Assembly: GCA_021158055.1 (NCBI GenBank)
Contig: JAGGVJ010000021.1
Location: 1 to 16,328, forward strand
Origin: Candidatus Iainarchaeum sp.
GTDB lineage: Archaea; Iainarchaeota; Iainarchaeia; JAGGVJ01
Direction: 5' to 3'
Length of the DNA stretch: 16,328 bases
Positions 2,121-16,095 of the stretch are shown one piece after another. The stretch's first letter is position 1. Each line of letters opens with the position of its first letter. The position numbers and the translations under genes were made by a program. The notes under the pieces were generated by a model. It saw nothing but the letters and a program-made list of their open reading frames with translations. It did no database searches and was not told where the DNA came from.

Positions 2121-2151
2121 TTGCAGGTATTGAATATTGAGCCGGCCAAAA

Positions 2152-2168
2152 AAAGAATTAAATTCTTT
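2152..2168. promoter_or_regulatory. 17-bp AT-rich dyad upstream of hypE
   Basis: AAAGAATT A AATTCTTT is a perfect 8-bp dyad around a single base, lying between the S-layer-like stop codon and hypE. It is followed by a T-run at 2179-2184. It could be an operator, a TATA-containing promoter element for hypE (its centre is about 27 nt before ATG 2187), or a weak terminator for the upstream gene. The sequence alone does not separate these. Confidence 0.25.
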
Positions 2169-2240
2169 GCAAGTCATCTTTTTTGCATGGGCAATGAAAA
2201 CAGTTGTTTTTCAAAAGAAGACGGCAAAACAAGAGAAACA

Positions 2241-3302
2241 ATGGCAGAAGCAACAAAAGCACTTCAAGGCAGAATTTCCCTTGCCCACGGGGCAGGCGGA
2301 AAATCAAGCGCGGAACTTTTAGACCTGATTTTTTCAAAAATAGAGCTGAAAAACACGCCCGGCGGAATCGGTATTGACTGCGCGGAAGATTCGGCACTGA
2401 TTAATCTTGTTGACGGCAGCAAAACAATTGCTTTTACAACCGACACTTACACGGTAAAGCCGCTTTTTTTCCCTGGAGCAGACATCGGGTGGCTTTCGGT
2501 TTGCGGAACAGTAAACGACCTTTCTGTCATGGGTGCAAAGCCAGTGGCTGTTTCGTGTTCGCTTGTAATAGAGGAAGGATTTCCGGTTCAAGACCTTGAA
2601 AAAATAATCGGGTCCATGAACCGCGCAAGCAAGACCGCGGGAGTTCCCATTGTTTGCGGGGACACGAAAGTCATGGAAAAAGGAAGCATTGACGGGTTAA
2701 TCATAAACACTGCGGGAATCGGCGAAGTGGCAGACCTGGTAAGGAACAGCGGTGCAAAAGTCGGGGACACTGTCATTGTGTCAGGGCCTGTGGGAGACCA
2801 CGGGATTGCCTTGCTGTCAGTCCGCGAAGGGCTATCCTTTGAAACCTTGCTTGAGTCAGACGCAGCCCCCCTCAATACCCTTATGCAGTCAATACCTTTG
2901 CCTCACGCCGCAAAAGACCCCACCAGAGGCGGGCTTAACTCTGCATTGAATGAAATCGCCCTGAAAAGCTCCATACCTTCTTCTCACGCCCTTGGCAGAG
3001 GGATTGAAATAAGAATTGATGAAGACAAGATTCCGGTCCGAAAAGAAGTGAAGGCGGCGTGCGCAATGCTTGGGCTTGATCCATTGTCTGTCGCGTGCGA
3101 AGGAAGAGTGGTTGTCTGCACTGACAAGCCCACAGAAACACTTGAAGCCATGAAATCACACCCTCTTGGAAAAGGAGCGCAGGCAATCGGGCGCGTGACG
3201 GAAAAAACAGGCAAGAGCAAGGCAGGGGTTTTTCTCAGGACAGCTGAAGGGGGAACCAGGGTTTTAAGGATGCAGGACGAGGTAATTCCAAGAATTTGCT
3301 GA
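2241..3302 (+). CDS. hypE: Hydrogenase maturation protein HypE
   Basis: HypE accepts a carbamoyl group from HypF on its C-terminal cysteine and dehydrates it with ATP to a thiocyanate, the source of the CN ligands of the [NiFe] hydrogenase active site. The protein shows the PurM/AIR-synthase-like layout: LAHGAGGKSS at residues 14-23, a glycine- and Asp-rich ATP-binding core (FTTDTYTVKPLFFPGADIGW, then CGTVNDLSVMGA at 88-99), VCGDTKV at 138-144, KDPTRGGL at 225-232, and the diagnostic C-terminal PRIC ending exactly at the stop with the modified Cys353. From ATG 2241 the length is 353 aa, normal for the family. The frame stays open upstream to TTG 2121, with another ATG at 2187, but those add residues without family resemblance. 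hypF begins 28 nt downstream, so the pair is likely one transcript. Confidence 0.95.
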   Translation: MAEATKALQGRISLAHGAGGKSSAELLDLIFSKIELKNTPGGIGIDCAEDSALINLVDGSKTIAFTTDTYTVKPLFFPGADIGWLSVCGTVNDLSVMGAKPVAVSCSLVIEEGFPVQDLEKIIGSMNRASKTAGVPIVCGDTKVMEKGSIDGLIINTAGIGEVADLVRNSGAKVGDTVIVSGPVGDHGIALLSVREGLSFETLLESDAAPLNTLMQSIPLPHAAKDPTRGGLNSALNEIALKSSIPSSHALGRGIEIRIDEDKIPVRKEVKAACAMLGLDPLSVACEGRVVVCTDKPTETLEAMKSHPLGKGAQAIGRVTEKTGKSKAGVFLRTAEGGTRVLRMQDEVIPRIC

Positions 3303-3330: not shown

Positions 3331-5652
3331 ATGAAAATCTTGATAAAAGGGACTGTCCAGGGAGTGGGGTTTCGCCCGCATGTTTTCTCGCTTGCGAAAA
3401 AGCACTCTGTGAAAGGTTTTGTGAGGAACGCGGGGCCAGACGTTGAAATAATCGCAAGCGGCAGCGTTTCAGAAAAATTTCTTGACGGACTTGTTTCGCT
3501 TGCCCCCCCGCTTGCAAAAATAACATCCGTTGAAGTTGACAAAACCGCTTTTGCGCACAGTGAAGATTTCAAAAATTTTGAGATAGTTTCAAGCTGTATT
3601 ATTGACGGAAACAATTTCAGGCTGCCTGTTGACTCGCGTGTCTGCGACAAGTGTCTGGCAGATCTTTCCGAAGCCAAAAACAGGCGGTTCGGTTACTTTT
3701 TGACTGCCTGCACTGACTGCGGTCCGCGTTTTTCAATAGGGGAAAAAGTTCCTTTTGACAGGGGCAACACTTCTTTTTCAGATTTTTCTTTTTGTCCGGA
3801 CTGCGAAAAAGAATTTTCAAATCCAGGTGACCGCAGGTTTTTTGCCCAGACAATCTCCTGCAGGGAATGCGGGCCAAAGCTTGAGCTTGAAGAAAAACAC
3901 GGCGCAAGAACAGCGGGATTTGCGGAAAGAGGAGACGAGATAGAAAAGATAGAAAGGACTGCAGAGCTTTTGAAAAAAGGAAAAGTTGGGCTTGTTAAGG
4001 GCTGGGGGGGATTTCACTTTGTGATGGATGCAACTTCGCCGAACGTGAAGGGTTTCAGGAAGCAAACATTTAGGGGAAACAAGCCGTTTGCGGTGATGGC
4101 AAAAGACCTCAAGTCAGTTGAAGAGTTTGCGCAGCCGACAAAACACGAAAAAAAACTGCTTGAGTCAAAAAAAAGACCCATTGTTCTCGTGGAAAAAAAA
4201 GAAAACAAAGAAAACGCGTTGTCTCTCCAAAACGAAAAATTAAATGAATATGTTTCGCCAAACCTTCACACTGTCGGTGTCATGCTTCCTTATTCACCGC
4301 TTCATTACCTGTTGTTTGAACTGATTGATTTTCCCCTGGTGTACACTTCCGCAAACAAGCCGGGGCTTCCGACAATCGTGTCTGGCGCAGAAGCGCGAGA
4401 GCTTTTCACTGCGGTTGATTCGCCGGTAGATTTTTTGCTTTCAGACAACCTTGAGATAAAAAACCGCTGTGACGATTCTGTTGTCCGGATGCAAGGCGAA
4501 AGGCCTCTTTTTCTGAGGCGAGGCAGGGGAAATGTTCCAGGCATGCAGAAACTTTCATTTAAATTTGAAAAAACAGTTTTTGCGCTTGGGGCAAGGCGCG
4601 ACTGCTCAATTTCCGTTGCTTCAAAAGGCATGCTTTTCCAGGGGCCTTACATCGGAAAAGCAGACTTTTTGGAAGTATCGCAGCAGATGCGCCTGGAGTT
4701 TGAAAAATACGTGTCCTGGTTTGGAAAACCCGATGTTATCGCATGCGATCTTCACCCCCAGTTTGAGTCAACAGTTCTTGCGAAAGAGTTGAGTGAGAAG
4801 TTATCGGTTCCTTTAATCCCTGTGCAACACCACTGCGCGCATTCTTTTTCACCTGTTTTTCACGAGAACGGGTTTTCACCGCAAGATGACTTTGTCTCAA
4901 TAGTGTGCGACGGCACAGGGCTTGGCAGCGACGAAGTTCTCTGGGGCGGGGAGGTGTTTTTGCGCAAAGACGGGGGGTTTGAAAGAGCAGGGCATCTGGC
5001 GCAAAAGCCTTACTTTGGAGATGCTTCCGCGCGGGAGCCGTTGAAAACCGCTGCTTCAATGCTTTTTGAAAACTTTGGTGAGGAAAAAACCTTTGAAGTT
5101 CTTCAAAGAGCTTACGGCAAAGAAGAATCAAAGTTTATCCTGTCATGCCTTGGAAGCGAGGGAAGCGCGACGACAAGCACGGGAAGGGTGCTTGACGCGG
5201 TTTCTGCATTGCTTGGGGTATGCACTAAAGCGACTTTTGAAGGGGAACCGGCAATGCGGCTTGAAAGCTCTGCCTTGGGCGGCGATTCATGCGCTCTTGA
5301 AAAAGAGCTTGAGCTTGAAATATCAAAAAAATCAGGAAAACTAATCCTTGAAACTTTCCCGTTGCTTGACGTTTGTGTCGGTTTTGAAAACAAGGGGATT
5401 TCCGGGAAAGACCTGGCGGCTTCCATTCAAAGAGCCCTCGGGCTCGGCATCGGGAAAGTTGCGCGCGAAGTGATTGAAAGCAACGGGATTGAAAAAGTTG
5501 TTTTAAGCGGGGGAGTGGTGTTTAATTTGGCGTTTGCGAAAGCCGTTGAAGAAGGGACTGGTGGTTCTGCTCAAGTGCTTGTCTGCCGGTGCCCGGGAGA
5601 TGCCGGAATTTCAGCAGGGCAGGCGGTTTGGGCTGCAGGCCTTCGTCTTTAA
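3331..5652 (+). CDS. hypF: Carbamoyltransferase HypF
   Basis: HypF converts carbamoyl phosphate and ATP to carbamoyl-adenylate and passes the carbamoyl group to HypE. All parts are present in order. The acylphosphatase domain (1-90) has VQGVGFRPHV. Two zinc-finger modules use C105/C108/C127/C130 and C155/C158/C177/C180. The YrdC-like domain (about 205-400) has KGWGGFHF, KPFAVM, YSPLHYLLF, TSAN and RCDDSVVR. The C-terminal Kae1-like domain (about 415-773) has CDLHPQFEST, VQHHCAH (metal-binding H500/H504), DGTGLGSD, WGGE, STGRVLDAVSALLG, LSGGV and GDAGISAGQA. The 773-aa length is normal. After RRF the His common in this family appears to be Phe171, a small oddity. ATG 3331 fits the start of the acylphosphatase domain exactly. 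It lies 28 nt after hypE. No hypA-D or hydrogenase gene is in view, though an EchD-like domain occurs at 6282-7169. Confidence 0.96.
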   Translation: MKILIKGTVQGVGFRPHVFSLAKKHSVKGFVRNAGPDVEIIASGSVSEKFLDGLVSLAPPLAKITSVEVDKTAFAHSEDFKNFEIVSSCIIDGNNFRLPVDSRVCDKCLADLSEAKNRRFGYFLTACTDCGPRFSIGEKVPFDRGNTSFSDFSFCPDCEKEFSNPGDRRFFAQTISCRECGPKLELEEKHGARTAGFAERGDEIEKIERTAELLKKGKVGLVKGWGGFHFVMDATSPNVKGFRKQTFRGNKPFAVMAKDLKSVEEFAQPTKHEKKLLESKKRPIVLVEKKENKENALSLQNEKLNEYVSPNLHTVGVMLPYSPLHYLLFELIDFPLVYTSANKPGLPTIVSGAEARELFTAVDSPVDFLLSDNLEIKNRCDDSVVRMQGERPLFLRRGRGNVPGMQKLSFKFEKTVFALGARRDCSISVASKGMLFQGPYIGKADFLEVSQQMRLEFEKYVSWFGKPDVIACDLHPQFESTVLAKELSEKLSVPLIPVQHHCAHSFSPVFHENGFSPQDDFVSIVCDGTGLGSDEVLWGGEVFLRKDGGFERAGHLAQKPYFGDASAREPLKTAASMLFENFGEEKTFEVLQRAYGKEESKFILSCLGSEGSATTSTGRVLDAVSALLGVCTKATFEGEPAMRLESSALGGDSCALEKELELEISKKSGKLILETFPLLDVCVGFENKGISGKDLAASIQRALGLGIGKVAREVIESNGIEKVVLSGGVVFNLAFAKAVEEGTGGSAQVLVCRCPGDAGISAGQAVWAAGLRL

Positions 5653-5730: not shown

Positions 5731-6255
5731 ATGACAATGACTACCGGTGGTCGAGTTATTGAAATTGTGCAGGATATGGATAGATCCATCTCGGTTATGT
5801 ACAATGCAGGTACCTGGCTTAAAACATCAGGTAAAAAACTTTCAAAGTGGAGGAAACCTGAAAACTTAAACCGCGATTTTTTATTGCAATATGTGAAACC
5901 TGATGAATTCTATGTTGTTCTGGTTAATGGAAGACAAGCAGCAGCTGCTATTCTTCAATTTGATCAAAATAGTCAGGATTGGAAATGTGTTGATAAAAAT
6001 AAAACCATACATGCATTGTATATTCATTGGTTATGTGTTGAACGTGAATATACAAGCACAGGATTGCCAAAAGTAATTATGGATTTTGCTGAACAAAAAG
6101 CGATTGAAAATGGCATCATTTTTTTAAGAGCAGACACTAATGCACAAATTATGAAATTAATGAAAATATATGAAAAATTGGGATTTGATCTGATTTCTAT
6201 AGAACAAAAAGATTATCGTCAAACCGCATTTTACCAGAAACCAGTAAGAAAATAA
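5731..6255 (+). CDS. GNAT-family N-acetyltransferase
   Basis: The 174-aa protein follows the GNAT pattern: an N-terminal helix segment around NAGTWLKTSGK (25-35), a central strand FYVVLVNGRQAAAAILQF (60-77), the beta4 / acetyl-CoA region ALYIHWLCVEREYTSTGLPK (95-114), then a helix and IYEKLGFDLI (146-155), typical of the GNAT C-terminus. It most resembles small stand-alone acetyltransferases of the 'WLKSKGINQW' type. The substrate cannot be told. The pyrophosphate loop is weakened: the first Gly of the usual R/Q-x-x-G-x-G appears to be Ser (YTSTGLPK), so acetyl-CoA binding may be altered. Base composition and codon choice (ATT, TTT, AAA, GAA) are clearly more AT-rich than in the flanking hypF and tsaC-like genes, suggesting recent acquisition. 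It has its own promoter and is convergent with the next gene, 26 nt apart. Confidence 0.8.
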   Translation: MTMTTGGRVIEIVQDMDRSISVMYNAGTWLKTSGKKLSKWRKPENLNRDFLLQYVKPDEFYVVLVNGRQAAAAILQFDQNSQDWKCVDKNKTIHALYIHWLCVEREYTSTGLPKVIMDFAEQKAIENGIIFLRADTNAQIMKLMKIYEKLGFDLISIEQKDYRQTAFYQKPVRK

Positions 6256-6281: not shown

Positions 6282-7169
6282 TCATTTCCTTGCAACTTTT
6301 TTCATTGTGGAAGCGTCAATGATTGTTGAAACCGGCTTGTTTTTTTTCCCGCCGTCAATGTAGACCGCAACCCCTTGCCCGAAGTATTCCATTGCTTTTT
6401 TAGCAGTTGTTGCGGGCGGTTTCCCTGTTTTGTTTGCGCTTGTGGCAGTCACCGGGTTCCCGAGCATTGAGATGAGCCTGCACACCCATTTTTCATCAGG
6501 GATTCTCACACCGATTCTTTCAAAACCAACTGCCGCTTCACGCAAAAACTCATTTTTGGGCACAAGCAAAAAAGTAAACGGTCCGGGAAGCTTTTCCTCG
6601 ATTTCTTTTGCGTTTTCTTTTTCAAAAAACCTCCAGAGCATTTTTTTGCCGGAAACAAAAACCGGAAGCGGTTTTTCCAGATTGCGTTCTTTCAAGGCAT
6701 AAATCCGCTTGACTGCCAGCGGGTCGGCCACGTCTGCAAGCATGCCGTAAACCGTGTCGGTCGGTGCCACCACCACAAGCCCGTCTTTCAGGGCGTTTGC
6801 CGCAACACTCAGTGATTTTGAGTCGTCCTGGTTCAGCGCCGCAAGAGACTCCCGGTTTGTTTTGTCTTTTGCTTTTTCAGGGTAAAAGATTCTTTTTTTT
6901 GAATGGTCTCCGAAGTTTACTTTGAACTTTTCGTGTATCTCGCGCTCAAACAGCTCTGCTGAAGGAGAAAACCATTGAAAAGAAGGTGCTTTTTTGCTGC
7001 TTATCCTTACTGCAAGGCTTATCTGGTGGCGCCCGACAAAATGATAAACAAGGTGCAGGGCGTCTGACTCAAATGCGGAAATGTAGGCAAGGCGGTGGTC
7101 GGCGTGAAGTTTTTTTGCCTGCTCAAGCAATTCCTCTTGCGTTACATATTTTAACGACTGCAGTTTCAT
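6282..7169 (-). CDS. Fusion: EchD/NuoC-like domain + YrdC/TsaC domain
   Basis: Residues 1-98 resemble the 30 kDa complex I / EchD / NuoC family: VTQEELLEQAKKL (9-21), LHLVYHF (38-44), then APSFQWFSPSAELFEREIHE (61-80), KFKVNF, GDH and KKRIFYPE (to 98). This follows the family's PS..(W)..A...EREI.D.F.(6)H...R.I signature with small deviations (Lys81 where a hydrophobic is usual, one residue shorter before the final Arg). After a polar linker (99-117), residues 118-295 form a complete YrdC domain with PTDTVYGM (136-143), YALKERNLEKPL (157-168), LPGPFTFLL (194-202), VRIP and TATSANKTGKP (241-251). YrdC proteins of the TsaC/Sua5 type make threonylcarbamoyl-adenylate for tRNA t6A37; the C-terminal Sua5 domain is absent. 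The gene starts 39 nt after AMP phosphorylase ends, so it is likely cotranscribed. The two domains are in one uninterrupted frame. Function of the first domain here is unknown. Confidence 0.85.
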   Translation of the reverse strand: MKLQSLKYVTQEELLEQAKKLHADHRLAYISAFESDALHLVYHFVGRHQISLAVRISSKKAPSFQWFSPSAELFEREIHEKFKVNFGDHSKKRIFYPEKAKDKTNRESLAALNQDDSKSLSVAANALKDGLVVVAPTDTVYGMLADVADPLAVKRIYALKERNLEKPLPVFVSGKKMLWRFFEKENAKEIEEKLPGPFTFLLVPKNEFLREAAVGFERIGVRIPDEKWVCRLISMLGNPVTATSANKTGKPPATTAKKAMEYFGQGVAVYIDGGKKNKPVSTIIDASTMKKVARK

Positions 7170-7208: not shown

Positions 7209-8741
7209 TCATTCAACTGACTGGATAATGATTTTTTTAAGTACCACAGGGTGCCGTTTTTCAAGGTAGCTGATTGCCGATTCAAGCTTTTGCTTGTTTT
7301 CAGCATGCACTTCAAACAAAATGTCTCCCTTATGCACTTTTTCTCCCACGACCTTGTGAAAGTACAAGCCTGCCTTTTTGTCTTTCGGCGAACCCGCGAT
7401 CCTTGCAAGAAGGTTTGTTTTTTTGTTGCTTATCTGTTCAATGTAACCCTCTCTTTTTGAGAGCACATTTTTTTTGTATTCTGCAAGCTTGATTGATTTT
7501 GAAGTCACGGTTGATTTCCCGCCCTGCATCTTGATTATCTCGCGCATTTTTTTAAGGGCCAGGCCGTTTTCAATTGTTTTTTTTGCAAGGTCAAATCCGT
7601 TTCCCTTTTCCGCTTTCCCGGTCATTTCCAAGAGCACTCCGGCAAGCTCGCATGACTTTTCCCCAAGATCGTCGAAAATTTCTCCTTCAAGGGTCCGCAG
7701 AACAGCCCTTGCCTCGAGAGCCGGCCCGACAGCCCTTCCGATTGGCTGGTCTCCCTTTGTAATCAATGCCTCTGTTTTTATGCCGAGCCGTTTTCCTATC
7801 TCAACAAAATCGTCTGCAAGTGCTTTTGCGTTTTTAAGGGTTTTTACTTTGGTGTCAGGGCCCATCGGAATGTCAATTATCAGGTGGTTTGACCCGACAG
7901 ACGCCTTTTTGGCCATGACGCTTGCAATGACCTGTCCGCGGGGGTCTGCCCTCAACGGGTGCTCCACTTTGATGATTATGTCATCTGCGGGTGCAAGGCT
8001 CACCGCCCCGCCCCACGTGATAACAGCGCCGATTTTGTTTGTTATGCTCTTTATTTTTTCAAGGGGCAAATCCACAGGGCACAACACCTCCATGGTGTCT
8101 GCGGTTCCGGCAGCGCTTGTAATTGAACGCGAGGAAGTTTTCGGCATGCATAAACCGTTTGCAGCAAGTATTGGGACCACAAGCATTGTGGTTCTGTTTC
8201 CCGCCACGCCGCCGATGCAGTGCTTGTCCACAATTAGCGGCTTTTCAAATTTGATTTTTTCCCCGGAGTCAATTATCGCCCTGGTCATGTATTCAACTTC
8301 ATCCATGTTCAAGTCATTTATGTACATGGCCGTGACAAAGGCAGCGAGTTCAATTTGGCTCAAATTGTTTTCAATTATATCATTTACTATCTTGTATATC
8401 TCGGATTTTTCAAGAACCTGGTCGTTCATTTTCTTTTTTATGTACAGCATCGACTCCGGCGGTGAAGAGGGCTCAAGGAAAATTTCCTGCCCTTCTTTCA
8501 GGTTCAGTTTTTCGGCAAGCTCAAGTGACACGCCCACTTCGTCTTCTTTGACAAGCCGCGTGGTTTCGTTTACAATTGCTGTTATGTCATCGTTGTTTGC
8601 GCCGCAGACCTTTACGCGGTCTTCGATGTTTATCCCGAGTTCTTTCATGTCATTCGGGTGCATTACAATGACAAGGGGACCGCCTGTCGTAAGGTCTAAA
8701 AGTTTCACTTTGACTGGTATCGAATAAATCTTGACTTCCAT
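7209..8741 (-). CDS. AMP phosphorylase (archaeal DeoA family)
   Basis: The enzyme phosphorolyses AMP (and often CMP/UMP) to ribose-1,5-bisphosphate plus the free base, the first step of the archaeal nucleotide-to-RuBP route. The 510 aa match the archaeal length of about 500. Residues 1-90 are the extra N-terminal domain of the archaeal enzyme. The alpha domain and phosphate/nucleotide core follow: DKHCIGGVAGNRTT (172-185), KTSSRSITSAAGTADTMEVL (201-220), WGGAVSLAPADD (243-254) and GDQPIGRAVGPALEA (330-344). The C-terminal alpha/beta domain has SPKDKKAGLYFHKVVGEKVH (451-470). Bacterial thymidine phosphorylases lack the N-terminal domain. The start at 8741 gives MEVKIYSIPV, as expected. It lies 104 nt after the isomerase gene and appears to have its own promoter. 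Confidence 0.94.
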   Translation of the reverse strand: MEVKIYSIPVKVKLLDLTTGGPLVIVMHPNDMKELGINIEDRVKVCGANNDDITAIVNETTRLVKEDEVGVSLELAEKLNLKEGQEIFLEPSSPPESMLYIKKKMNDQVLEKSEIYKIVNDIIENNLSQIELAAFVTAMYINDLNMDEVEYMTRAIIDSGEKIKFEKPLIVDKHCIGGVAGNRTTMLVVPILAANGLCMPKTSSRSITSAAGTADTMEVLCPVDLPLEKIKSITNKIGAVITWGGAVSLAPADDIIIKVEHPLRADPRGQVIASVMAKKASVGSNHLIIDIPMGPDTKVKTLKNAKALADDFVEIGKRLGIKTEALITKGDQPIGRAVGPALEARAVLRTLEGEIFDDLGEKSCELAGVLLEMTGKAEKGNGFDLAKKTIENGLALKKMREIIKMQGGKSTVTSKSIKLAEYKKNVLSKREGYIEQISNKKTNLLARIAGSPKDKKAGLYFHKVVGEKVHKGDILFEVHAENKQKLESAISYLEKRHPVVLKKIIIQSVE

Positions 8742-8845: not shown

Positions 8846-9775
8846 TCAAAGCGTGTTTAGTTCTGCTGCGTCCCGAACCATTGACGAAATGAATGTTTGA
8901 GGGGTAAGCACGCCCATCTCGCAGATTATTCCGCGCACGAGTTCGATTTCAGTGCAGTCAAAAGCAGGGTTCAGCACTTTCAGGTTTTTTTGAAGCGCTG
9001 ATTTTATCACTTCAAGGGAACTCCTGTTTTCTATGGGTTCAAGAAAGCCCTGCAAAGTCAAAGGGTCAAACTTGTGCGACGAAGTGCACACGTAATGGTG
9101 CGCTTCCTCTGCCTTTGCAGCAAGGGAAATAAGCGACGTGCCTATTTTGTTCACCACGAAACCGTCGGAAGTAATCGCGTCTGCGCCTGAAAAAAACAAA
9201 TCAACGTCATTCATTATGTGACGCGCGGCAGAATCAACTATGAGAGTTGTGTTTATGCCGTAGGTTGAGAGTTCTTTTGCGCTTATCCTTCCCTGAAAAA
9301 GCGGCCGTGTTTCAGTGCATATGACACTGAATTTTTTTCCCTTGTCAAACGCCCTTTTAATCACGGCCATTACTGTGTTACTGTGGCAGTGAATCAGGAT
9401 GGTGCTGTTGTCCGGGATAAGGTTTGAGCCAAACTCGCTTATTTTTTCGTGTTCTTTCGGGAGTCTTAAGAGATAATCTTTGCAGGCGGAAATAGTCTTG
9501 TTTTTTCTTTTTTCAAATTCTTTTTCCTTTCCGGCTTTCAGTATGATGTACTTCAATGCGTTTCTGAGCATCGGTTCGGTTGGCCTTGAAGACGCAAGGA
9601 TTTTCGCGTTTTTTTCAAGTCCGGCCATGAATCCTTTTGCAGGTTCTTTTTCTGTTTCCCTTGCCCAGTAAAGAACAGCGCGCACTGCTTCTTTTGCAAC
9701 ATTTCGCGCCCCCTGAATTTCAAGGCGCTTTATTTTGCCGGCAGAGATCCTGATTTTGTTTTTTGTGTTTTGCAT
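8846..9775 (-). CDS. Ribose-1,5-bisphosphate isomerase
   Basis: It converts alpha-D-ribose-1,5-bisphosphate from AMP phosphorylase to ribulose-1,5-bisphosphate, the RuBisCO substrate. The 309-aa protein belongs to the eIF2B / methylthioribose-1-phosphate isomerase family: an N-terminal helical part with ASSRPTEPMLRNAL (61-74), then IHCHSNTV (128-135) containing the catalytic Cys130, TETRPLFQGRISAKEL (154-169), FFSGADAI (194-201) with catalytic Asp199, VNKIGTSLISLAAK (208-221), and a C-terminal segment with NPAFDCTE (269-276). The length and motifs fit archaeal R15P isomerase better than eIF2B subunits or MTNA, and the neighbouring AMP phosphorylase supports this strongly. It is the first gene of a minus-strand cluster. 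A weak AT-rich box on the minus strand (about 9810-9820) could be its promoter. Confidence 0.93.
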   Translation of the reverse strand: MQNTKNKIRISAGKIKRLEIQGARNVAKEAVRAVLYWARETEKEPAKGFMAGLEKNAKILASSRPTEPMLRNALKYIILKAGKEKEFEKRKNKTISACKDYLLRLPKEHEKISEFGSNLIPDNSTILIHCHSNTVMAVIKRAFDKGKKFSVICTETRPLFQGRISAKELSTYGINTTLIVDSAARHIMNDVDLFFSGADAITSDGFVVNKIGTSLISLAAKAEEAHHYVCTSSHKFDPLTLQGFLEPIENRSSLEVIKSALQKNLKVLNPAFDCTEIELVRGIICEMGVLTPQTFISSMVRDAAELNTL

Positions 9776-14253: not shown

Positions 14254-16095
14254 TTAGCAGGAGCCGCCCACATCAACGTTTGCGGAAGAAGGCATTTCAA
14301 GGTCAATGTCGCACCCTGAAAGGTCCGGGTTTTGCAGGCACACGCCTCTCTGCACTGTGTCTATGCTGTAGCCCCGCAGGAAAATGCTGTTGTTCACAAG
14401 CCAGGTCGGTGAAGCGGTTATGCCGAGCTCGTCTGTAAATGCAATGCTTTCTTCAAGAAGCTTTGTCCCTTCGACTCCTTTTGCGCATTCTTCAACGCTT
14501 GTCGCGTCAATTCCCGCGTTGCCCGCACACTCCGCAAACATATCTCCAATGTTCCTGTAATCGGCGTTTGCGCATTCAAGGTAGTCAAGCAGCTTGTCAG
14601 GGTAGTTTTCCATTATGCACACTTGCCTCAGGTTCTCGTCCACTTCGTTTTGGCCGTGAAGGCTTGAGAAATTACCGTCGCCGTTGCTTTCAGCAATGAA
14701 CCGGATGTTGTATTCAAGGTCAGGCATTGACTTGACCATTTCTTTCAAAGTGGCTTCAGCCATTGTTCCGTAAGGGCACTGGCTCATCACAAACAAGTCA
14801 ACAGTGTTTTTGATTTCTTCCCTTCCGATAGTTTTTATCGGGGCAGTGTTCAGCAAATACAAACTGTTTTCTGTTTCCGTAAGGTATTGTTCTATCACGC
14901 CGAACTGCTCGTGTTTTTCAACGTTGTCCGGGTAAAAGAAGTATGCCGGAAGCCCGCTTATCTCGGCTTCTTTTATGAGCTCCTGTCCTTCAACCGAATC
15001 CATGTCAATTTCCTTGATGGCAAGGTTTGAGAAAAGCCCTTTGATTGAGCCGATCATCTGTGCAGGATCGCACAAGGCGCAAGTTTTGTCGTTTAAGATA
15101 AGCAGGTTTATCTCCTGTTCGGGAGGCAGGTTTTTGCACACTTCGCTTTCAGAGGCAAACTTGCATATTGCGCGTTTCAGTGAGATGGGATCGCGCCTTC
15201 CGCTGTACGGTTCTCCGTCAATGTAAAAAGTCGGCGAGCCGGATATTCCAAGCTGTTTTGCGCGCTTTATGTTCTCGCTTAAAAGAGTTTTTCCTTCTTC
15301 CCCCAAAGCACACGCTTCAAGTTCTGTTATCTCTTCCGCGGTCAATCCCGCGGTTTCAGCGGAAGCTCCCCAGTCCTTTTTGCCATGAGAAAGGTTGTCT
15401 GCAACAGCCAGCAGGTAGTCAAACAGTTTTCCATGCGAGTTTTTCAGCACGCACAACTGCCTGGTGTCTTCCTCTACTTCAGGCTGGCCGTGAAGGCTTG
15501 AAAAAGAGCCGTTGCCTGTTTCTTCTGCAATGAAGTAAATGTTGAATTCAACTTCTTTCCCGAACTCTTCAAGAACAGGTATGAGTGACTTTTCTGCCCG
15601 GGTCCCGTGAGGACAATAGCTCATGGCAAAAAGATCCACTTGAGTAAGCGCGTCTTCATATATCTCACCACTTCCATTTGCGGGTTCAGTTCCGCTCCCG
15701 CCGCCGCTTCCTGCGCCGCCCGCGCCTCCCCCTCCGCTTCCTGCGCCCACGCTTGTGTTTTGGTCTTCAGGGGGAATTACCATATTGACCGTTCCCCCTT
15801 GAGGCGTGCCTATGAGTCCTTCAAGCGCACCGTTGCCGATGGACACGGCGGCAAAAACAAGGATTATCGCGGCAACTGAAAACAGCATAATCTTTGAAGA
15901 ATCAAACGGTTTGGGTTGTTTTGGTCTTGATTCGTTTTCAGGGCCTTTTTCGGCAACTTGTTCTTCACCAATTTTTTTGGCTTCAGATTGTGGTTGAGAT
16001 TCTTCTGCGTGCCTGTCTTCTTCTTTTCTCGGGCTCAAAGCAGTTTTTTTTGCATTTGCATTTCTTTTGTGCTTGTTTGATTTCTTTTTTGACAT
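14254..16095 (-). CDS. Membrane-anchored protein with three thioredoxin-fold domains (DsbA/GILT-like)
   Basis: The 613-aa protein has a charged cytoplasmic N-terminus (1-66), one membrane helix (about 68-88) and a Gly/Ser-rich linker (117-142), so its bulk is extracytoplasmic. Domain 1 (152-320) has MSYCPHGT (C161) and SLHGQPEVEEDTRQLC (200-215). Domain 2 (about 328-425) has the redox pair CALC (339-342) and a cis-Pro-like GLPAYFFY. Domain 3 (431-595) repeats domain 1 with MSQCPYGT (C440), SLHGQNEVDENLRQVC (478-493) and a cis-Pro-like ASPTWLV. The SLHG..E...N....C string parallels the GILT signature C-Q-H-G-x2-E-C-x2-N-x4-C with two Cys replaced. Domains 1 and 3 have one Cys at the usual active site, so a classic CxxC reaction there is unlikely; other Cys may substitute. 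The protein ends in Cys613. A role in disulfide chemistry of surface proteins is inferred. Confidence 0.85.
   Translation of the reverse strand: MSKKKSNKHKRNANAKKTALSPRKEEDRHAEESQPQSEAKKIGEEQVAEKGPENESRPKQPKPFDSSKIMLFSVAAIILVFAAVSIGNGALEGLIGTPQGGTVNMVIPPEDQNTSVGAGSGGGGAGGAGSGGGSGTEPANGSGEIYEDALTQVDLFAMSYCPHGTRAEKSLIPVLEEFGKEVEFNIYFIAEETGNGSFSSLHGQPEVEEDTRQLCVLKNSHGKLFDYLLAVADNLSHGKKDWGASAETAGLTAEEITELEACALGEEGKTLLSENIKRAKQLGISGSPTFYIDGEPYSGRRDPISLKRAICKFASESEVCKNLPPEQEINLLILNDKTCALCDPAQMIGSIKGLFSNLAIKEIDMDSVEGQELIKEAEISGLPAYFFYPDNVEKHEQFGVIEQYLTETENSLYLLNTAPIKTIGREEIKNTVDLFVMSQCPYGTMAEATLKEMVKSMPDLEYNIRFIAESNGDGNFSSLHGQNEVDENLRQVCIMENYPDKLLDYLECANADYRNIGDMFAECAGNAGIDATSVEECAKGVEGTKLLEESIAFTDELGITASPTWLVNNSIFLRGYSIDTVQRGVCLQNPDLSGCDIDLEMPSSANVDVGGSC

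Follow-up and report, generated by a model that had tools for sequence, protein, structure and literature searches.

A single gene of a Diapherotrites genome encodes an EchD-like hydrogenase subunit that is joined end to end to TsaC, the enzyme catalyzing the first step of the universal tRNA modification t6A. It is probable that this gene gives rise to one bifunctional protein supplying EchD and TsaC together. As judged from sequence comparison, the presence of the two domains, their completeness, their uniqueness in the genome and two vacated positions elsewhere are established. The families are known, and the EchD-TsaC layout is new as far as our searches go.

The genome is a MAG of 1.15 Mb in 45 contigs (95% complete, 0.05% contamination) and the sole genome of its order in the comparison set. 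The window analyzed here is the whole of contig C6 (16,328 nucleotides).

Architecture of the fusion gene

The fusion gene lies on the minus strand of the window, with its ATG at 7169 and its TGA at 6282-6284 (Table 1). The uninterrupted frame of 295 codons described in the earlier note is thereby borne out, as are its two domain calls, joined end to end, by Pfam, NCBIfam and AlphaFold/Foldseek. Inspection of the frame revealed no in-frame ATG, GTG or TTG between residues 15 and 131. Hence, the TsaC part, lacking a standard start codon of its own, can only be translated within the fusion, and an internal start yielding two overlapping proteins is excluded.

Table 1. Coordinates of the fusion gene and its neighbors in the window, and of the hydrogenase operon on contig C20 (locus L071).
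Feature	Position	Strand	Basis
EchD-TsaC fusion gene	6282-7169	-	single open frame, 295 aa, ATG start
EchD/MbhK/NuoC-like (Complex1_30kDa) domain, residues 9-100	6870-7145	-	PF00329, pLDDT, Foldseek, BLAST
Linker, residues ~101-125	6795-6869	-	pLDDT and alignment
TsaC/YrdC domain, residues 126-292	6294-6794	-	PF01300, TIGR00057, invariant columns, Foldseek
AMP phosphorylase gene	7209-8741	-	TIGR03327 over cut-off
Ribose-1,5-bisphosphate isomerase-like gene	8846-9775	-	TIGR00511 266 bits, cut-off 314
hypE, hydrogenase maturation	2121-3302	+	TIGR02124 over cut-off
hypF, hydrogenase maturation	3331-5652	+	TIGR00143 617 bits, over cut-off
NuoL-like	L071 5819-7606	-	
EchE, large subunit	L071 4591-5832	-	
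NuoK/MnhC-like membrane protein	L071 4007-4597	-	without Pfam match
NuoN-like	L071 2719-4014	-	
EchC, small subunit	L071 ~2309-2722	-	
NuoH-like	L071 1366-2304	-	
Fer4 protein	L071 1031-1369	-	

Each half was modelled with AlphaFold from a separate alignment. With the EchD alignment, residues ~10-90 adopt a confident NuoC/EchD fold (block pLDDT about 80-94), which Foldseek matches to NuoC chains and to 6cfw_K. With the TsaC alignment, residues ~120-295 form a confident TsaC fold (pLDDT mostly 92-97) matching TsaC/Sua5 crystal structures with E ~1e-16, and the predicted structures are thus in line with the layout proposed before. The linker takes the place of the EchD C-terminal tail and runs into the first TsaC helix. 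It is of low confidence in both models, with pLDDT values below 50 around residues 89-102.

In a profile search of the genome the fusion is the only match to PF00329, and the only match to PF01300 besides the YrdC domain of HypF. The separate EchD/NuoC or TsaC/Sua5 that the earlier note had suggested looking for was not found in this search; a second copy of either may lie in the missing 5% of the genome.

The EchD half and the hydrogenase it would serve

The Pfam model PF00329 matches residues 9-100 with an E-value of 3.0e-10 and 41.2 bits (curated cut-off 22.5). The N-terminal call of the earlier note had been staked on this search, and the match is significant. The NCBIfam model NuoC_fam (TIGR01961) gives 21 bits, below its curated cut-off of 122.45. 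Since the free EchDs of the related genomes G060 (45 bits) and G086 (59 bits) fall under the same cut-off, this model is too narrow for this branch.

The best BLAST match of the fused EchD is the EchD of G086 (E 3e-13), followed by that of G060. It is 37% identical to the G086 protein, whereas the free EchDs of G060 and G086 share 31% identity with each other. Seven of 13 strongly conserved positions are kept; three other divergent EchDs keep 8/12, 9/14 and 8/11. By these measures of sequence, conservation of the fused EchD is comparable to that of free EchDs, and it is not more diverged. The alignment identifies it as a short, nearly complete EchD that is missing the C-terminal P-(L/W)-R-(K/R)-D tail alone. 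This tail is present in most relatives, and the EchDs of G060 and G086 also keep it only in part. The EchD tree is weakly resolved, and the fused EchD groups weakly with G086 and G060; in the EchE tree the present genome groups with the same two genomes (94/93).

The EchE of this genome belongs to an operon for a group-4 membrane [NiFe] hydrogenase on contig C20 (Table 1). Both cysteine motifs of EchE are intact (RICGICSHCH and DPCFACLDR), the four cysteines of EchC are kept, and EchD is the one subunit missing from the operon. The fused EchD in turn is located outside any group-4 hydrogenase or complex I operon, the window contig containing none. Loss of the hydrogenase is excluded, because the C20 operon is complete but for EchD. 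The idea that the fusion is a relic of a lost hydrogenase operon, raised in the earlier note, has therefore to be abandoned: EchD alone is lacking, and hypA, hypC-hypD, hypE and hypF are all present.

Among the 87 genomes of the phylum, a group-4-type large subunit and PF00329 occur in the same 16 genomes and in no others, with 17 genes of each kind. EchD is found directly upstream of EchE in 15 of the 17 cases. One further EchD is free-standing (G060; 108 aa, L077 9001-9327, about 6.5 kb from the hydrogenase large subunit), and the last is the fusion. The free-standing gene is divergent from a gene for an EamA-like transporter, and a similar transporter gene adjoins the hydrogenase operon in G014 (L072 16108-17082).

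The EchD half could also be idle, the C20 hydrogenase working without EchD and the gene being a TsaC with a decaying N-terminal extension. The loss of the C-terminal tail and a PF00329 score that is the lowest of the phylum set (43.5 bits in that search) would fit such a decay. However, none of the other group-4 large subunits of the phylum lacks an EchD gene, and the fused EchD, about as conserved as the free ones, keeps a confident NuoC fold. An idle EchD half is therefore unlikely.

The TsaC half

The C-terminal part, assigned to YrdC in the earlier note, matches PF01300 (Sua5_yciO_yrdC) over residues 126-292 with E 7.1e-41 and 140 bits (cut-off 25.1). The NCBIfam model for L-threonylcarbamoyladenylate synthase (TC-AMP synthase), TIGR00057, covers residues 115-289 with 141 bits (cut-off 123.2). 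All 11 invariant columns of the TsaC alignment are kept, including Lys160, Ser244 and Asn246. Both KxR (K160-E-R162) and SxN (S244-N246) are present, the catalytic residues that serve as the criterion for the TsaC/Sua5 family (PMC10321239). PF00329 and PF01300 are the only Pfam domains of the fusion; the acylphosphatase, zinc-finger and Kae1-like domains of HypF are absent. Since Kae1, Bud32 and Pcc1 are encoded in the genome, the t6A pathway would need the TsaC of the fusion.

Two vacated positions and the origin of the fusion

In the short-TsaC relatives examined, the TsaC gene shares the strand of kae1 and precedes it directly or at a short distance, often with a 4-base overlap. The shared gene order is NDK - dCTP deaminase - IF2 - S6e - eIF2-gamma - PIN - RpoE' - Spt4 - S24e-like - CPBP - TsaC - Kae1, in which the names other than CPBP and Kae1 were assigned by reading translations. 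Contig C20 of the present genome contains the same block with Kae1 30 bases after CPBP, and TsaC alone is absent. Kae1 (L071 9087-10082) is encoded upstream of the hydrogenase operon, with a single gene (purT) in between. Since this operon lacks EchD and the CPBP-Kae1 block lacks TsaC, both parent genes are gone from their expected positions on one contig. The two that have vacated C20 are found joined on C6. Most likely, the join arose by relocation followed by end-to-end fusion: EchD is already outside the operon in the related G060, and TsaC would have moved away from the kae1 locus.

The same fusion was not found in the 86 other genomes of the phylum, as judged by open-frame lengths, nor in the 34 genomes of the phylum of G087. 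It was also absent from the 80 best TsaC relatives in GTDB genomes, in which every match begins at or after query residue 67, and a scan with the whole fusion protein returned no relative. Among the genomes searched, the fusion is thus restricted to one, which answers a question raised by the earlier note. A literature search for a YrdC-NuoC or TsaC-hydrogenase fusion retrieved nothing relevant, and none of the papers found reports TsaC attached to a subunit of an energy-converting complex.

This distribution bears on a regulatory or channelling device, akin to the link between t6A and membrane redox complexes considered in the earlier note, in which the tether would put TC-AMP synthesis on the membrane hydrogenase and t6A would respond to the state of the hydrogenase, local pH or bicarbonate, or the reverse. 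Besides the fusion itself, a single gene separates kae1 from the hydrogenase operon and another separates bud32 from hypC-hypD, as such a device might lead one to expect. Nevertheless, no relative has kept the fusion, G060 has EchD and TsaC on different contigs, and the neighborhood of kae1 is otherwise an ordinary phylum-wide block; we consider the device improbable. It is equally improbable that the fusion was selected as a physical tie between the membrane hydrogenase and t6A synthesis (and with it the fidelity of translation), one protein coordinating energy conservation with decoding. A regulatory link is not needed to explain the fusion, and none of the data calls for one.

A fusion known from a single MAG, with no second genome containing it, might also result from two contigs joined in frame by chance or by binning. 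Several observations speak against such an assembly artefact. The frame continues through the join, which coincides with domain boundaries and lies inside the contig, and neither parent gene is found at its home position or anywhere else in the genome. In addition, the GC contents of the two halves (0.44 and 0.48) are in line with the genome, and contamination is minimal. We therefore regard an artefact as very unlikely.

Proposed role and comparison with known fusions

For the bifunctional protein we propose the following roles. EchD and MbhK normally assemble with the peripheral arm of their hydrogenase. The EchD domain of the fusion would accordingly assemble in trans with the peripheral arm of the C20 hydrogenase (EchE/EchC). 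The tethered TsaC domain would make threonylcarbamoyl-AMP from threonine, bicarbonate and ATP, which would be handed to Kae1/KEOPS for t6A formation. The "dual-use enzyme" considered in the earlier note is supported in this sense, as one protein carrying two roles, each half being the only copy detected in the genome. Counter-points to the bifunctional protein are the single MAG, the lost EchD tail, the lowest PF00329 score, the 7/13 positions and the weak grouping in the EchD tree.

If both roles are true, a respiratory subunit and a probably essential tRNA-modification enzyme cannot be independently expressed, localized or lost, and the fusion would clearly exemplify, in nature, how genome reduction can tie together essential functions that are unrelated. 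The gene is also a trap for annotation: unless it is read as both, the C20 hydrogenase is called incomplete and the genome seems to be without an ordinary TsaC.

With EchD/MbhK/NuoC proteins (PF00329; MbhK of Pyrococcus furiosus MBH, 6cfw chain K) the N-terminal half shares the fold, the ERE-H/W-E/D motif and the co-occurrence with a group-4 large subunit. It differs from them in being encoded away from the hydrogenase operon, in the lost C-terminal tail and in the attached TsaC. EchD-EchE and NuoC-NuoD fusions (E. coli NuoCD, HycE) show that an EchD/NuoC domain can bear another domain at its C-terminus; in these, by contrast, the added domain is a neighboring subunit of the same complex. Frames of 540-597 aa, the length expected for such fusions, occur in the phylum of G087.

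The C-terminal half has in common with single-domain TsaC (COG0009) the complete domain, KxR/SxN, a TIGR00057 score over the cut-off and the TsaC fold. Unlike single-domain TsaC, it follows an N-terminal EchD domain and is not encoded beside kae1, as it is in most of the short-TsaC relatives examined. YrdC/TsaC-like domains are found in the multi-domain chains of Sua5, HypF and TobZ (PMC10321239, PMC9654439). In TsaN (TsaD-TsaC-SUA5-TcdA, PDB 8ide) the YrdC domain is likewise joined to others in one chain. In HypF, TobZ and TsaN, the partners of the YrdC domain share its carbamoylation pathway or belong to an analogous one, whereas in the EchD-TsaC fusion YrdC is combined with a structural component of a respiratory complex to which it has no chemical connection.

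Maturation genes and other neighbors

As the earlier note had pointed out, hypE and hypF are close to the fusion gene on the other strand; they end 0.63 kb away. The genome further encodes HypA, which adjoins a Mrp/ParA-type ATPase, and a HypC-HypD fusion. With HypA, HypC-HypD, HypE and HypF present, a matured hydrogenase is expected.

The fusion to a hydrogenase subunit and the vicinity of hypF could suggest that the YrdC half provides carbamoyl-adenylate for CN ligands rather than for t6A, as the earlier note had hinted, but three findings make this most improbable. A full-length HypF is encoded whose own YrdC domain spans residues 212-398; Kae1, Bud32 and Pcc1 are present in the genome while no TsaC other than that of the fusion was detected; and TIGR00057 scores the fusion above its cut-off versus 24 bits for hypF.

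HypC and HypD are fused in one frame of 412 aa (G000:C31 34186-35424; L194 6187-7425), a second fusion with hydrogenase genes. The bud32 gene (L194 4136-4792) is separated from hypC-hypD by one CoaBC-like gene. At both the kae1 and the bud32 locus, besides the fusion, t6A genes are thus found beside hydrogenase genes, possibly by chance.

A match to the [NiFe] large-subunit family PF00374 was detected in 38 of the 87 Diapherotrites genomes. HypD and the HypF zinc finger were detected in only three of these 38 (the present genome, G016 and G073), both searches pointing to the same genomes. The other 35 apparently carry [NiFe] hydrogenases without the known enzymes for synthesis and assembly of the CN/CO ligands, and incompleteness of the MAGs is not an easy explanation for all of them.

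The AMP phosphorylase gene, likewise on the minus strand, precedes the fusion by 39 nt, and the two are likely co-transcribed. The apparent cluster comprises three genes and begins with the ribose-1,5-bisphosphate isomerase-like gene.

Between hypF and the fusion, a gene for a GNAT acetyltransferase (5731-6255) has a GC content of 0.33 and a GC3 of 0.24, compared with 0.44-0.49 GC for its neighbors, which suggests that it was recently acquired. The contig starts (2-346, minus strand) within an open frame that resembles part of a transposase and has no Pfam match, probably a repeat that broke the assembly. Finally, the minus strand at 14254-16095 encodes a protein of 613 aa with two thioredoxin/DsbA-like domains and an N-terminal hydrophobic segment.
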